Shown: piece after piece, positions 23,451 through 28,493 of the stretch
How positions within the stretch are numbered: the first letter of the stretch is position 1
Layout: every line of letters starts with the position of its first letter
Assembly (NCBI RefSeq): GCF_000585375.1
Contig: NZ_KK073874.1
Coordinates: 5,789,864 to 5,853,863, forward strand
Origin: Cryptosporangium arvum DSM 44712
Lineage (GTDB): Bacteria; Actinomycetota; Actinomycetes; Mycobacteriales; Cryptosporangiaceae
DNA length: 64,000 nucleotides
Direction: 5' to 3'
Notes under the pieces: model-generated
The model's database searches: none
What the model saw: the letters and a program-made list of their open reading frames with translations, nothing else
Told to the model about the DNA's origin: nothing
Translations under genes and position numbers: made by a program

Positions 23451-23582
23451 CAAGTCGACACCTCATCATCATCGAGCCGGAACACCCTCAAACTACCCTT
23501 CTCCCGCCCGAGCGCCATTTGACCGCCGCGCAGGGGACGCCACTGTGGACTCCGCCGTGCCATAGTGCGCGGCGGGGGGACC

Positions 23583-26294
23583 ATGCGATCCAGCTCAGGG
23601 CGCCAGGTGCGGGCGGCGATCCGCCGGCAGGCCGCCGCGCGCCTCGGCGACGCCGACCACCACGTCTTCCTCTCCTACAACCACGCCGACCGGGACTGGG
23701 CGCAGACGCTCGCGCACCGCTTCCAGTCCCTCGGCCGGGGCTGGCGGCGGCACCCGCCGTTGCGTGTCTTCGTCGACTCCACCGACGTCAACGCCGGTCC
23801 CGACCTGTCCGCCGCGGTGACCGACGCGCTGGCCCGCTCGCGGTACCTGGTGCTGCTGGCCTCGCCGCACTCGGTGGCGTCCCGGTGGGTACCGCGCGAG
23901 CTCGCGTACTGGCTCGCGCACCGGCCGGTCGAGAACCTGCTGATCGCGCACCTCTCCGGCCACCTGGAGTGGGACGACACCACCGGCTGGACCGGCACCG
24001 CGATCGACGCCGACCTCCTCGGCCGGGCGTTCGCGGCCGAGCCGGTCCACGCCGACCTCACCGGGCTCCGCCCGTTCCGGCTCCGGCGGCCGGCCACCTG
24101 GCGTCACCGGAAGGCGGTCAGCTCCGCGGCCGCCTCGCTCGCCGCGGCCGTGCTCGACCTGCCCAAACGTCAGCTCTACGACGACGACCTGCGCCGCCAG
24201 CGGCGATTGGTGCGCTCGACCGCGCTGGCCGTCGTGGCCCTCCTCGCGCTGGGCACCGCGGTGCCGGTCCTGGCCGACCGCTGGCGCCAGAGCAGGCAAC
24301 TGGAGTTCGCCACCCGGCTGGCCCGCGCCGCCGACGCCGAGACCGCCCGGCCCGACCTCGCGCTGCTGCTCAGCGCGGCCGCCGCCCACGCGGCCCCGAA
24401 CCACGAGCTCGATCGGGTGCTGCTCCGCCGCGCCGCCCGCTACCCCGGCCTCCGCCGCGTCCTTCCCGGCCCCGGCATCGGCACGGTCGAGCAGCTCGAC
24501 GTCTCCCCCGACGGGCGCTGGATCGCCGGCGCGACCCGCGTCGGCTCTCGCGCGGGGCTGATCCTCTGGCCCGCCGCCGGCGGCACCCCGCGGGTCGTCC
24601 ACGTCGAGGGCAGCCTCGCCACCGCGGTGGCGTTCGCTCCGGACGGCCGCACGGTGGCCGTCGGCACACTGCAGGGCACGGTCGAACTGCATCCGGTCGA
24701 CGCCGGGCGCGCGGGCCGCCGCGCGGTCGGCGACCGGCCGGCCGGCGCGGTCACGTCGCTGTCCTATCCGCCCGGCGGCGACCGGCTGATCGTCGGCCAC
24801 GACGACGGGCACGCCCGGCTGTGGGACCTGGCGCGCTCCGCCCCGGTGCGCACCTGGACGGACGTCGCCGCGGTCCGGGGAGCCCCCGACGGGCGCACGG
24901 TCGCGATCGCCGACTCCGCCGGGCAGCTGACGATCCGGGACACCGCGACCGACCGCGTCGTCCGGCGCGTCGACTCCGGTGGGCCGGTGCTCACGATGGC
25001 GTACCGGCCCGACGGGCGCCGGATCGCGGTCAGCGGGCCGACGACCGTGCTGGTGGTCGACCCCGCCACCGGGGCGGTGCGGCCGGTCCCGGGCGCGCCC
25101 GGCGGCGAGCAGCTCGCGTACGGCGCCGGCGACCTCCTGGCGTCGGGAAACACGCTCGTCGACGACGCCGCGACGAACCCGGTGACGCGGGGCCGTCCGT
25201 TCGCGCTGCTCGAGCGTACGATCGCCGTCGACCCGAGCGGGCGCACGCTGATCAGCGCCGGCCAGTGGCTCGACAGCCCCGATCACGGCGCGGCGCTGGT
25301 GTGGGACGCGACCGGCGGCCCGCTCGGCCAACGCGTCCTGCGCTCCACCGGTGCCCACGCCGTGCCGGCCCCCGACGGACGCCGGGTGGCCGCCGCCGGG
25401 CCGGGTGGCGTCACCGAGTACGACCCGGACACCGGCCGTCCGCTCGGCGGGCCGTTCACCGGCGTGAGCGCGCCCGACGCGCTCGCGTACAGCACCGACG
25501 GCCGGTGGCTGGCGGCCGTCGAAGGGCGCCGGCTCGTGCTCTGGCGGGGCGGGCGCGCTCCGGCCCGCGAGATCGCGCTGCCGATGCCGATGCTGGCCAC
25601 GAGCGGCCGGACGGCGCTGGTCGCGGCCGCGACGGTGTTCGCGGTGGCTCGGCCGGACGGCAGCGTGTCCGTCGTCGACGTCCGGTCCGGCGTGGTGAGC
25701 GAGGGCGCGGCGCCGGGCGGCGCACTGACCCCGGTGGCCTTCACCCGCGACGGGCGCACGGCCGCGATCGGCACACCCGGCGGGGTCACGCTGTGGAAGG
25801 GCGGGCGCACGCTCGCGCTCGATCGCCCGGTGACCGCGCTGACGTTCGTCGGCGCCACGTCCGACCTCGTCGGCACCGACGGGCGGCGCGTCGTGCGCTG
25901 GGACACCGGCACCGGGCGGCGCACGACGCTCGGCGAGGTGAGGGTGCCTTCCGGCGCGCCGCTCACCCGGCTGGCGACCGACCCGGCGGGGACGGTGCTC
26001 GCCGGAGCGTCGGACGCGGGGGGCGTCTACCTCTGGGACGTCGCCGACGGCACCCGGTGGACCCTCCAGGACACCGGCACCGGGGCCAGCGTCCTGGCCG
26101 ACGGTCCCGTCACCTCGCTGGCGGTCACCGGCGACGGCCGTGCGCTCGTGCTCGGACAGGGCTCGCGCCTCGTCCGCTGGACTCTCGACCCGGAGCATTG
26201 GAGGCGCTGGACATGCGACGTCGTGGGGCGGAACCTGACCGCGGACGAGTGGCACCAGTACGCGACCGGCGACCCGCCGCGGGTGTGCGGCTGA
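23583..26294 (+). CDS. TIR domain-transmembrane-WD40 repeat protein (copy 1)
   Basis: The product has 903 residues. The TIR domain (about 27-150) begins HHVFLSYNHADRDWAQTLAH, has RVFVDSTDVNAGPDL and LVLLASPHSVASRWVPREL, and retains the Glu after SRWVPR expected for NADase-type TIRs. One membrane helix follows (about 209-231, LVRSTALAVVALLALGTAVP). A helical linker (ARAADAETARPDLALLLSAAA) leads to a WD40 beta-propeller with many DGRxVA and LWD/LWR repeats (about 300-870). The C-terminal cap WTCDVVGRNLTADEWHQY ends in a final Cys. TIR proteins may act in immunity or signalling. Here the propeller would lie across the membrane from the TIR. ATG at 23583 follows GGGGGGACC. A paralogue lies at 48281-50119. 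Confidence 0.88.
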   Translation: MRSSSGRQVRAAIRRQAAARLGDADHHVFLSYNHADRDWAQTLAHRFQSLGRGWRRHPPLRVFVDSTDVNAGPDLSAAVTDALARSRYLVLLASPHSVASRWVPRELAYWLAHRPVENLLIAHLSGHLEWDDTTGWTGTAIDADLLGRAFAAEPVHADLTGLRPFRLRRPATWRHRKAVSSAAASLAAAVLDLPKRQLYDDDLRRQRRLVRSTALAVVALLALGTAVPVLADRWRQSRQLEFATRLARAADAETARPDLALLLSAAAAHAAPNHELDRVLLRRAARYPGLRRVLPGPGIGTVEQLDVSPDGRWIAGATRVGSRAGLILWPAAGGTPRVVHVEGSLATAVAFAPDGRTVAVGTLQGTVELHPVDAGRAGRRAVGDRPAGAVTSLSYPPGGDRLIVGHDDGHARLWDLARSAPVRTWTDVAAVRGAPDGRTVAIADSAGQLTIRDTATDRVVRRVDSGGPVLTMAYRPDGRRIAVSGPTTVLVVDPATGAVRPVPGAPGGEQLAYGAGDLLASGNTLVDDAATNPVTRGRPFALLERTIAVDPSGRTLISAGQWLDSPDHGAALVWDATGGPLGQRVLRSTGAHAVPAPDGRRVAAAGPGGVTEYDPDTGRPLGGPFTGVSAPDALAYSTDGRWLAAVEGRRLVLWRGGRAPAREIALPMPMLATSGRTALVAAATVFAVARPDGSVSVVDVRSGVVSEGAAPGGALTPVAFTRDGRTAAIGTPGGVTLWKGGRTLALDRPVTALTFVGATSDLVGTDGRRVVRWDTGTGRRTTLGEVRVPSGAPLTRLATDPAGTVLAGASDAGGVYLWDVADGTRWTLQDTGTGASVLADGPVTSLAVTGDGRALVLGQGSRLVRWTLDPEHWRRWTCDVVGRNLTADEWHQYATGDPPRVCG

Positions 26295-26956
26295 CGGTCG
26301 GTGTGCTGCTGACCGCGGGTGCGCTGGCGGCCGGCTGCGCCGAGACCCCGGCTTCGCCGGACCCGGCTTCCTCGGGCCCGGCCGCCTCGGGCCCGGCCGC
26401 CTCGGGCCCGGCTTCTTCCGGGCCGGCTTCTTCCGGGCCGGCTTCTTCCGGGCCGGCGTCGGCGGGGGTCGCGGCCGCGCTGGCTGACGTGTTGCGGGCG
26501 CCGCCGGGGTTCGCGCCGTACTCGCACCCGCTGGCCGGCCCGATCACCACGCCCGACGAGGTGGCCACGGTCTTCGCCGACCACCCCGGCGACGCCGAGT
26601 TTCTCCTCGGCCACGGCTTCCGGGCCGGCTACCTGCGCGGCTGGGCCCGCGAGACCGGCACCACCACCGCGACCAGCACCGTCGACCGCACGATCGCGCA
26701 GAGCATCGTCGTGCGGTTCGCGACCCCGGCCGACGCGCGTGCGTTCGTCACCCGGTCCCGCGACCTGTACACCACCGACGGGTTCACCCCGTTCCCGGTG
26801 CCGGCCGCGCTGCCCGGCGGGTGGGGCGGACGGTCCACCGGATCGGCCGGTGTCCTCTGGACCCGGGGCACCGACCTGTACAGCCTCGTCTTCACCTCGG
26901 CGACCATCCCACCGTCCACCGACGAGCTCGTCCGGGCCGCGCTGGCCCAGAACTAG
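26285..26956 (+). CDS. Secreted lipoprotein overlapping the TIR-WD40 gene
   Basis: The product has 223 residues. The signal peptide VRLTVGVLLTAGALAAGC ends in a clean lipobox (LAAGC). A Pro/Ala/Ser linker follows, encoded by 15-bp repeats near 26365-26460, then a domain of about 170 residues including PDEVATVFADHPGDAEFLLG and SIVVRFATPADARAFVTRSR. I do not recognise this domain. GTG at 26285 overlaps the TIR-WD40 gene by 10 bp, and an ATG at 26213 would put a hydrophilic tail before the signal. The overlap implies one operon, so the lipoprotein may act with the TIR protein at the cell surface. Confidence 0.68.
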   Translation: MRLTVGVLLTAGALAAGCAETPASPDPASSGPAASGPAASGPASSGPASSGPASSGPASAGVAAALADVLRAPPGFAPYSHPLAGPITTPDEVATVFADHPGDAEFLLGHGFRAGYLRGWARETGTTTATSTVDRTIAQSIVVRFATPADARAFVTRSRDLYTTDGFTPFPVPAALPGGWGGRSTGSAGVLWTRGTDLYSLVFTSATIPPSTDELVRAALAQN

Positions 26957-27240: not shown

Positions 27241-28344
27241 TCACGCCGAGGTCGCCCACTCCCGGTGCGGGCCGCGGTGCACGGCCGCGTAGACGGCGTC
27301 GCGCAGACGGTTGGCCTGCGCCGAGGTGAGCGCGCCGGTCGGGGGGCGCAGCGTCAGGCGCACCAGCACGTTGCACTCGTCGGGGCCCAGCCCGAGGCGT
27401 TCGCGCGCCACCGGCGGCAGCTCGTCGTACGGCGTGACGCCGACGATCTCCACCGACTCCAGCGACTCGGCGTCGTCGCCCAGCGCGCCGCGTACCGTGT
27501 CGCCGAGCAGCTCGGCGTCCGGGATCCCCGCGACGACGATCGACAGGTCACGCCGCACCGCGGGTTGCCGCGAGACCGGACGCCACGGCGCCAGGTCGAG
27601 CATCTGGCCGGCCACGCGGGGATCCGCCGAGCGCAGCAGCCGGATGTCGTCGACGCCCTTGCGCACCATCAGCGCGCGATCGAGCCCGATGCCCATCGCC
27701 AGCCCACCCATCCGCGGGCCGCGGGAAGTCAGACCGGCGTGATCGAGTACCGCGGGCGCGATCAGGCCGCACTCGCCCAGCTCGACCCAGCCGCCCGGCG
27801 TCTCGACGTCGATCTGGCGTCCGTCGCGCGTGTACGGGTGTGACGCCGGCGTCAGCCGCCACCGGGCACCGGGCACCACGGTCGCGACGACGAGCGCCGC
27901 CATGGCCTCGAGGTCGTCGAGCGAGACCGGCGACACCGTCACCCGCCACAGGTCCACCTGGTGCGGCGCCCCGACGTGCAGCCGGTCGATCACGTCGCGC
28001 CGGTGGACCAGGCCGGGCAGCACCAGCAGGACGTCGGGCACCGGGTCGGCCGCCAGGCGGCGCAGCGCGGGCGGGACGCCCGCCGACGTGTGGCTGCGCA
28101 GCATCACGGTCTCGCCGACGTACCGGCTGTACCGCGCGTCGCGGGTGACCGCGTCGGGTGCGTACCCGAGCCGGTCGTAGTTGTCCTCGACGGCCACGAG
28201 CGGCGACGGCCGCTGCACGCTCACCGGGCAGCGCCAGTCGGCGGCGACGAGGTCGTCGAGGAGGAGTTGGACGGCGTGCGGGCCGGCGGCCGGGTCGGTC
28301 AGGTCACGCAGCCGCAGGGCGGAAACGAGTTCAGCAGTGTTCAC
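27241..28344 (-). CDS. PheS-like class II ligase with C-terminal FDX-ACB domain
   Basis: The product has 367 residues. The class II core resembles phenylalanyl-tRNA synthetase alpha. It shows LRSHTSAGVPPALRRLA (substrate loop), SHPYTRDGRQIDV with GWVELGECGLIAPAVL (motif 2 region) and GGLAMGIGLDRALMVRKGVDDIRLL (motif 3). Residues about 270-365 form an FDX-ACB domain normally found at the end of PheT (PAVRRDLSIVVAG, TPYDELPPVARERLGLG). The N-terminal coiled coil of PheS is missing and no pheT is adjacent, so the layout is that of mitochondrial PheRS. I recall related proteins being called PheS-related ligases of unknown role (SrmL). GTG at 28344 has GAGGA five bases upstream. A Phe-codon leader and terminator precede it. 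Confidence 0.82.
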   Translation of the reverse strand: MNTAELVSALRLRDLTDPAAGPHAVQLLLDDLVAADWRCPVSVQRPSPLVAVEDNYDRLGYAPDAVTRDARYSRYVGETVMLRSHTSAGVPPALRRLAADPVPDVLLVLPGLVHRRDVIDRLHVGAPHQVDLWRVTVSPVSLDDLEAMAALVVATVVPGARWRLTPASHPYTRDGRQIDVETPGGWVELGECGLIAPAVLDHAGLTSRGPRMGGLAMGIGLDRALMVRKGVDDIRLLRSADPRVAGQMLDLAPWRPVSRQPAVRRDLSIVVAGIPDAELLGDTVRGALGDDAESLESVEIVGVTPYDELPPVARERLGLGPDECNVLVRLTLRPPTGALTSAQANRLRDAVYAAVHRGPHREWATSA

Positions 28345-28376
28345 GGGAATCCTCGTTCAGGTCGGAGGGAACAAAA

Positions 28377-28445
28377 CCCCCGGCCGACGAGCCCGCGCGC
28401 TACCGACTGATCACGGCACCCGCACGGCTGACCGGCAGCCGGGGG
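28377..28445 (-). terminator. Attenuator: terminator and alternative hairpin
   Basis: Read on the reverse strand, CCCCCGGC (28445-28438) pairs with GCCGGGGG (28384-28377), followed by UUUUGUU: a terminator ending 32 bp before the ligase start. An alternative hairpin CGGCUG-CCGGU-CAGCCG (28441-28425) uses part of the same 5' arm, so the two structures exclude each other. The 5' arm begins six bases after two Phe codons in a short reading frame. This is the layout of ribosome-mediated attenuation. Confidence 0.65.
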
Positions 28446-28493
28446 CGACGAAAGAAGGTGCGCACGAATTCACGGTACGCCCGCGCGCTACCG
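28391..28493. repeat. 15-bp direct repeat pair containing two stop codons
   Basis: GCCCGCGCGCTACCG occurs at 28391-28405 and 28479-28493, 88 bp apart. In the reverse direction each copy contains CGG-TAG: the upstream one ends the DUF72 gene and the downstream one ends the putative leader peptide. It may mark a local duplication or two equivalent RNA elements. Confidence 0.85.
28400..28465 (-). CDS. Putative leader peptide with Phe-Phe codons
   Basis: The 21-residue frame starts GTG CGC ACC TTC TTT CGT CGC and encodes MRTFFRRPRLPVSR plus seven further residues. The two Phe codons are at 28456-28451. A ribosome paused there would cover the 5' arm of the terminator (28445-28438) and permit read-through into the PheS-like gene. 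Completed translation would stop at TAG (28402-28400) and let the terminator form. No good ribosome site is visible, so translation is unproven. The peptide is otherwise Arg-rich. Confidence 0.5.
   Translation of the reverse strand: MRTFFRRPRLPVSRAGAVISR

Follow-up and report, generated by a model that had tools for sequence, protein, structure and literature searches.

A conserved phenylalanine-codon leader before srmL, a gene for a phenylalanine-poor PheS-related ligase, as a probable ribosome-mediated attenuator

What controls a PheS-like gene that stands alone in the genome of an actinomycete? In the window, by which is meant the whole stretch of 64,000 nucleotides of Cryptosporangium arvum DSM 44712 that was analysed, the gene srmL (27241..28344, minus strand) encodes a PheS-related mystery ligase, SrmL, of 367 residues, none of which is Phe. 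The original prediction, made from this one sequence, placed before the gene a ribosome-mediated attenuator that answers to low charged tRNA-Phe. Comparison of many srmL loci makes it quite likely that the leader is an attenuator of this kind, which senses charged tRNA-Phe and controls a Phe-poor, single-chain PheRS-like ligase. A Phe-tRNA sensor in front of a stand-alone paralogue is well supported by this comparison, but the terminator included in the original prediction is not a general property of the leaders.

The gene product is a member of the NCBIfam family NF051887, which it matches over the full profile (1-349 of 349) with a score of 503 bits (cut-off 300). Its scores fall far below the cut-offs of both the canonical PheRS alpha subunit (TIGR00468; 88 bits against 237) and the mitochondrial-type PheRS (TIGR00469; 87.6 against 258), and a separate canonical pheS is present in the same genome. 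SrmL is found in all four genomes of the genus, in 26 of the 395 genomes sampled in the class and in 3 of 396 in the phylum sample. Its carriers include Geodermatophilus, Modestobacter, Kineosporia, Kineococcus, Pseudonocardia, Planobispora, Rathayibacter, Arthrobacter, Paeniglutamicibacter and Rhodococcus. Conserved neighbours could have given a clue to function, but none is common to three or more groups of carriers; srmL is therefore a stand-alone gene for a PheS-FDX-ACB paralogue, as had been proposed. Two copies are irregular. In Pseudarthrobacter sp. NamB4 (L075) only residues 21-107 of SrmL are matched and no leader was found, so that this copy is probably broken, and the frame of L103 may be broken near its middle, where two overlapping tblastn pieces lie in different frames. 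Elsewhere in the window, the plus strand encodes a protein that combines an N-terminal TIR domain with WD40 repeats (23565-26294) and a putative lipoprotein stretch with repeated SSGPA/SGPAA units (about 26300-26950).

The most telling result, in our opinion, was not part of the original prediction: SrmL is nearly free of PHENYLALANINE. No Phe occurs in 54 of 70 SrmL proteins, and the mean Phe content of the 70 is 0.11%, whereas 22 canonical PheS proteins from this order contain 15-20 Phe residues, or 5.0%. The depletion does not extend to Tyr and Trp. Phe is conserved in PheS at 13 columns of the alignment, and SrmL almost never has it there; its place is taken by Leu, Tyr, His, Val, Pro or other residues. 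Most of the few remaining Phe are accounted for by reference position 61 and by the Paeniglutamicibacter group, and the SrmL of L102, which comes from outside the class, has none at all. A composition free of Phe would be expected of an enzyme that is needed when Phe-tRNA is scarce. The same argument has been made as a cognate bias, in which enzymes needed during starvation are poor in the starved amino acid (PMC4209129).

The leader frame was found where the original prediction had placed it. It runs on the minus strand from 28465 to 28400, reads GTG CGC ACC TTC TTT and onward to TAG, and encodes VRTFFRRPRLPVSRAGAVISR in 21 codons followed by a stop. Both of its predicted Phe codons are present, but only the second, the TTT at 28453-28451, is conserved. 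Alignment with orthologous leaders had been suggested as a check and came out in favour of the prediction: all 68 complete, non-duplicate srmL leaders, which form the main set, contain a Phe-bearing short ORF with one invariant Phe, usually within the motif F-x-x-P-R. The Phe codon is followed by the stop codon at a distance of 51 nt in 61 of the 68 leaders and of 42, 48 or 57 nt in the others. It is TTT in 64 leaders and TTC in four, a preference whose binomial p-value is not to be taken at face value since the leaders are related by descent. Elsewhere TTT is rare, accounting for one of 30 Phe codons in srmL coding sequences and for none of 78 in six window genes, for one of which (a DUF72 gene) the start used is doubtful. 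The distant leaders L051, L102 and L103 encode a Phe-bearing short ORF as well. In the leaders of L102 and L103, both from outside the class (MVEHRRRFVSPPEVRGASRWR and MAASQRRRFPCPPVVRGVERRSR), Phe is retained and Pro-Pro replaces Pro-Arg; L051 has Pro-Gly at this place. A scan of NCBIfam with the leader peptide returned no match.

A -10-like box, TACCGT (28472..28477, minus strand), lies 6 nt before the leader start codon. Among the 68 leaders, 59 have a TANNNT sequence ending 6 or 7 nt before the in-frame start, compared with 0.8% at random ATG or GTG codons. This spacing is that of leaderless transcripts, and the mRNA of the leader is therefore probably leaderless itself.

Between the Phe codon and srmL the minus strand contains five arms. 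Arm B, CCCCCGGCTG (28436..28445), begins 8 nt after the first base of the Phe codon and can pair with either arm C, CAGCCGTGCGGG (28419..28430), in a local hairpin suggested by both covariation and folding, or arm E, CGGCCGGGGG (28377..28386), its long-range partner by covariation. Arm D, CGGGCTCGT (28387..28395), lies just 3' of the leader stop and, in minimum free energy folds, pairs with arm D', ACGAGGATTCCCG (28344..28356), which comprises the Shine-Dalgarno region of srmL and the first base of its start codon. The elements of the original prediction map onto these arms. Its 5' strand, CCCCCGGC, is present at 28445-28438, although it starts five bases after the TTT and not six; its 3' strand, GCCGGGGG, occupies 28384-28377 and is followed, as predicted, by TTTTGTT (28376-28370), a possible terminator tail that is not conserved in congeners. 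The competing hairpin was also recovered, with CGGCTG at 28441-28436 pairing with CAGCCG at 28430-28425. The folding energy of the window leader is ordinary (z of -0.76 for the whole leader and -1.47 from the start codon), so that the sequence of a single species could not settle whether the element is real. A terminator scan of the window did not list B:E, the loop of which is about 50 nt and thus accounts for the omission.

The pairings are borne out by the 68 leaders, in which both B:E and B:C covary. For B:E, 97.2% of the cells are paired and 14 cells show double changes; the 500 shuffles averaged 5.1 (sd 1.6), and not one of them reached this number. When the partner was slid by 1-3 columns, the pairing fell to 34-65%. 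For B:C, 86% of the cells are paired with 13 double changes, compared with 3.9 in shuffles. Wherever one column of B has A instead of G, both C and E have U, the pattern that an arm switching between two partners would produce. The arm next to the Phe codon is thus shared by two mutually exclusive pairings. Duplexes formed within a clade are better than those formed across clades in 78-83% of trials for B:E, B:C and D:D' and in 70% for C:D; the negative-control pairs C:E and C:D' give 49-52%, which is no signal.

The element is confined to srmL as far as the class was searched. A covariance model of the leader, R1, gave 21 matches in 247 genomes of the class, one per genome and each just upstream of srmL. 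These genomes include 22 srmL carriers, and the model missed only G046, whose leader (L100) has diverged. One weak match (L153; E 0.03), in a genome without srmL, lies beside an ORF for a Rieske-type protein and was taken as chance. Rfam gave no match to the window or the leader at either gathering or permissive thresholds and nothing relevant in nine relatives; the leader was assigned to no T-box, riboswitch or other Rfam family.

From this comparison we infer how the leader may work. Transcription would start at or beside the leader start codon, as the spacing of the -10 box suggests, and the ribosome translating the leader would encounter the one conserved Phe codon, which is usually the rare UUU. 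If Phe-tRNA is ample, the ribosome would proceed and B would pair with either E or C, whereupon the srmL start region would be sequestered by D:D' and, in some clades, also by the 5' end of the leader; alternatively, transcription would end where a U-run follows E. If Phe-tRNA is scarce, the ribosome would wait at UUU and its footprint would extend over about the first bases of B; B:E and B:C would be weakened, and srmL would be expressed. Being essentially Phe-free, SrmL could be made under these conditions. The sensing of Phe-tRNA by the leader is likely, as is the expression of srmL under Phe-tRNA shortage, to which the Phe-free product and the arrangement of L051 point. Classical attenuators have several regulatory codons; the single conserved codon of the srmL leaders counts against the attenuator reading.

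Several readings of the output have to be weighed. The CCCCCGGC/GCCGGGGG stem and its U-run had been interpreted as a terminator, and the same sensor might act by premature transcription termination in all species, through B:E without a U-run or through Rho. The run TTTTGTT does follow E in the window species, and L051, from an AT-rich uncultured bacterium, has an srmL leader (660-1010; fold z of -4.1) with the layout of a textbook transcription attenuator. By eye, its segments were assigned to the set B:C, C:D and D:E (1:2, 2:3 and 3:4), in which D:E is a clear terminator hairpin followed by U6 and CUGGGG/CCCCAG a candidate antiterminator. It also speaks for termination that B:E is the dominant fold in 63 of the 68 leaders when the RNA ends just after E (48 of 68 with B partly masked by a ribosome). 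Clear intrinsic terminators with a U-run before srmL are, however, restricted to the window species and L051. The congeners of the window species lack the run after E (GGGGGAGAGA and GGGGGAGATG), and in 57 of the 68 leaders the 8 nt after E contain 0-3 U, most leaders having GGGGGAG or similar there. Moreover, most leaders carry an arm complementary to the Shine-Dalgarno and start region of srmL, as D is in the window. Termination as the output in all species is thus somewhat unlikely. Control at the start of translation in most actinobacteria, with termination in some, is the better but unproven guess.

When the leaders are folded at full length, the srmL start region is for the most part paired, via D:D' and in some groups via the leader 5' end. 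When B was masked over a length that we assumed for the ribosome, the mean accessibility of the start site rose only modestly, from 0.34 to 0.39, with an increase in 31 and a decrease in 10 of the 68 leaders; the window leader goes the opposite way, from 0.38 to 0.31. In transcripts ending before E the same masking shifts the fold from B:C to C:D in 62 of 68 leaders. C:D was considered as a strong anti-sequestor and rejected: it has 10.1 pairs, compared with 8.5 for shuffled and 8.4 for cross-clade D segments, and since a shuffled or foreign D is nearly as good, C:D is weakly supported.

The leader might also be translated constitutively and be coupled to srmL by re-initiation or by opening of the start site, with no sensing of an amino acid. 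Hiding of ribosome-binding sites is common, and the srmL start region has its complement in the leader 5' end itself in 6 of 14 groups. In leaders of the f34 group, such as L089, the 5' end AUGCCAGG is complementary to the start region CCUGGUCAU, so that the srmL start site could be shut by the leader ORF. Such coupling would leave unexplained the invariant Phe, the preference for the rare UUU and the near absence of Phe from SrmL, and is improbable. More doubtful still is a nascent-chain arrest peptide with the arrest motif F-x-x-P-R, which would sense an antibiotic or metabolite and not Phe-tRNA. The Pro-Arg codons of the 68 leaders differ at third positions only, which hinted at a constraint on the peptide. 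This constraint was rejected, as L102, L103 and L051 retain Phe but have lost Arg; furthermore, the C/T and G/A changes in the Pro-Arg codons track changes in E, the remainder of the peptide is variable, and the product of the controlled gene is depleted specifically of Phe. Finally, a chance combination of a short ORF with GC-rich hairpins in a GC-rich spacer, with which the ordinary folding z-scores would agree, is refuted by conservation and covariation across many genera.

The predicted fold of SrmL (mean pLDDT of 91.7) has its best match in human mitochondrial PheRS with a TM-score of 0.67-0.73, and the class II catalytic motifs HTS, RRD and GLGLDR are retained in the sequence. The Phe pair in the pocket of PheRS is replaced by H169 and Y171 in all 51 aligned sequences, the first Gly of GCG by an invariant Glu, E191, and the Glu of HQxE by Asp, D131; these four sites correspond to substrate-pocket positions of PheRS. 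The pocket that marks the mitochondrial-type PheRS, with two Phe and the GCG glycine, is thus not that of SrmL, and the altered residues H169, Y171 and E191 imply that its substrate may not be Phe. SrmL may serve as a backup PheRS whose pocket has been purged of Phe, or it may have another substrate. Its role would likely be to help in restoring the supply of Phe-tRNA, or to act on either tRNA-Phe or a Phe-like substrate. A more specific proposal casts SrmL as an emergency PheRS that bootstraps itself, or as an enzyme that charges tRNA-Phe with another aromatic amino acid; in both versions it is purged of Phe, which would let it be translated once Phe-tRNA has run out, and is armed by a one-codon UUU leader that would sense precisely this state. 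We put the proposal forward tentatively, with a chance that we judge a little short of even. In either version SrmL would give actinobacteria a response to inhibition of PheRS or to starvation for Phe, and a backup synthetase would bear on tolerance to PheRS inhibitors. In either case, two independent traces, the leader codon and the Phe-poor protein, link a mystery enzyme family to a signal, the lack of charged tRNA-Phe.

A related arrangement was observed before canonical pheS genes, both in the window genus and in some relatives within the order. There, a short leader ORF with the motif F-x-x-P-A-G, such as VRYRHEFRRPAGRA followed by a stop, lies shortly upstream of pheS at L104 and occurs at L105, L106, L005, L022, L023, L026 and L028. 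Its Phe codon is mostly TTT and is followed by GC-rich inverted repeats. A Phe attenuator on pheST is therefore probable in part of the Actinobacteria; the F-x-x-P-A-G leader is absent from most other pheS loci examined.

Attenuation by a leader peptide is in itself well known. In the enterobacterial pheST and pheA attenuators a leader peptide with Phe codons is followed by rival hairpins that share the adjacent arm. The srmL leader resembles them in its Phe-bearing peptide, in rival hairpins sharing the codon-adjacent arm and, in the case of pheST, in the control of a gene for Phe-tRNA synthetase or a relative of it. It differs in having one conserved Phe codon, in being probably leaderless and usually without a U-run terminator, and in its target, a stand-alone Phe-free paralogue and not pheST or pheA. 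Attenuation of the enterobacterial operons is cited in PMC1183508 and PMC1262725, the latter of which reports that the phenylalanine operons of Actinobacteria have no conserved RNA regulatory structure. Another parallel is offered by the leaderless amino-acid leader peptides of Streptomyces (leuL, trpL, ilvL, thrL, alaL and metL), short ORFs which also precede synthetase or biosynthesis genes; none of the eight leader peptides of S. lividans described is for phenylalanine (PMC8079986). One of them, TrpL2, precedes trpS, contains just one Trp codon and lacks a U-rich tract (PMC8079986). With the srmL leader, phenylalanine would join the amino acids to which leader peptides of Actinobacteria respond, and the leader offers a clear test of the function of SrmL. 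The open-access literature yielded no report on SrmL or on a Phe leader in Actinobacteria, and as far as we know a Phe-sensing leader combined with a Phe-free synthetase paralogue has not been described before.

The auxiliary, indolmycin-resistant TrpRS of Streptomyces is under ribosome-mediated attenuation. It is likewise a spare synthetase gene that is switched by attenuation when the cognate tRNA is uncharged, with Trp in place of Phe; we know of no report that this spare enzyme is purged of its cognate residue. Human FARS2, the mitochondrial-type single-chain PheRS, is the best match to SrmL in both sequence and fold and has the same architecture, a catalytic domain with an FDX-ACB domain behind it. 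SrmL shares about 21% identity with it and differs in the lack of Phe and in the pocket (F to H169, F to Y171, Gly to E191 and Glu to D131). The low cognate bias described for biosynthetic enzymes, in a paper in which the term 'tRNA synthetase' is absent (PMC4209129), is carried to an extreme in this synthetase-like protein, with no Phe in 54 of 70 sequences: SrmL would be an enzyme built without the very residue whose shortage calls for it.
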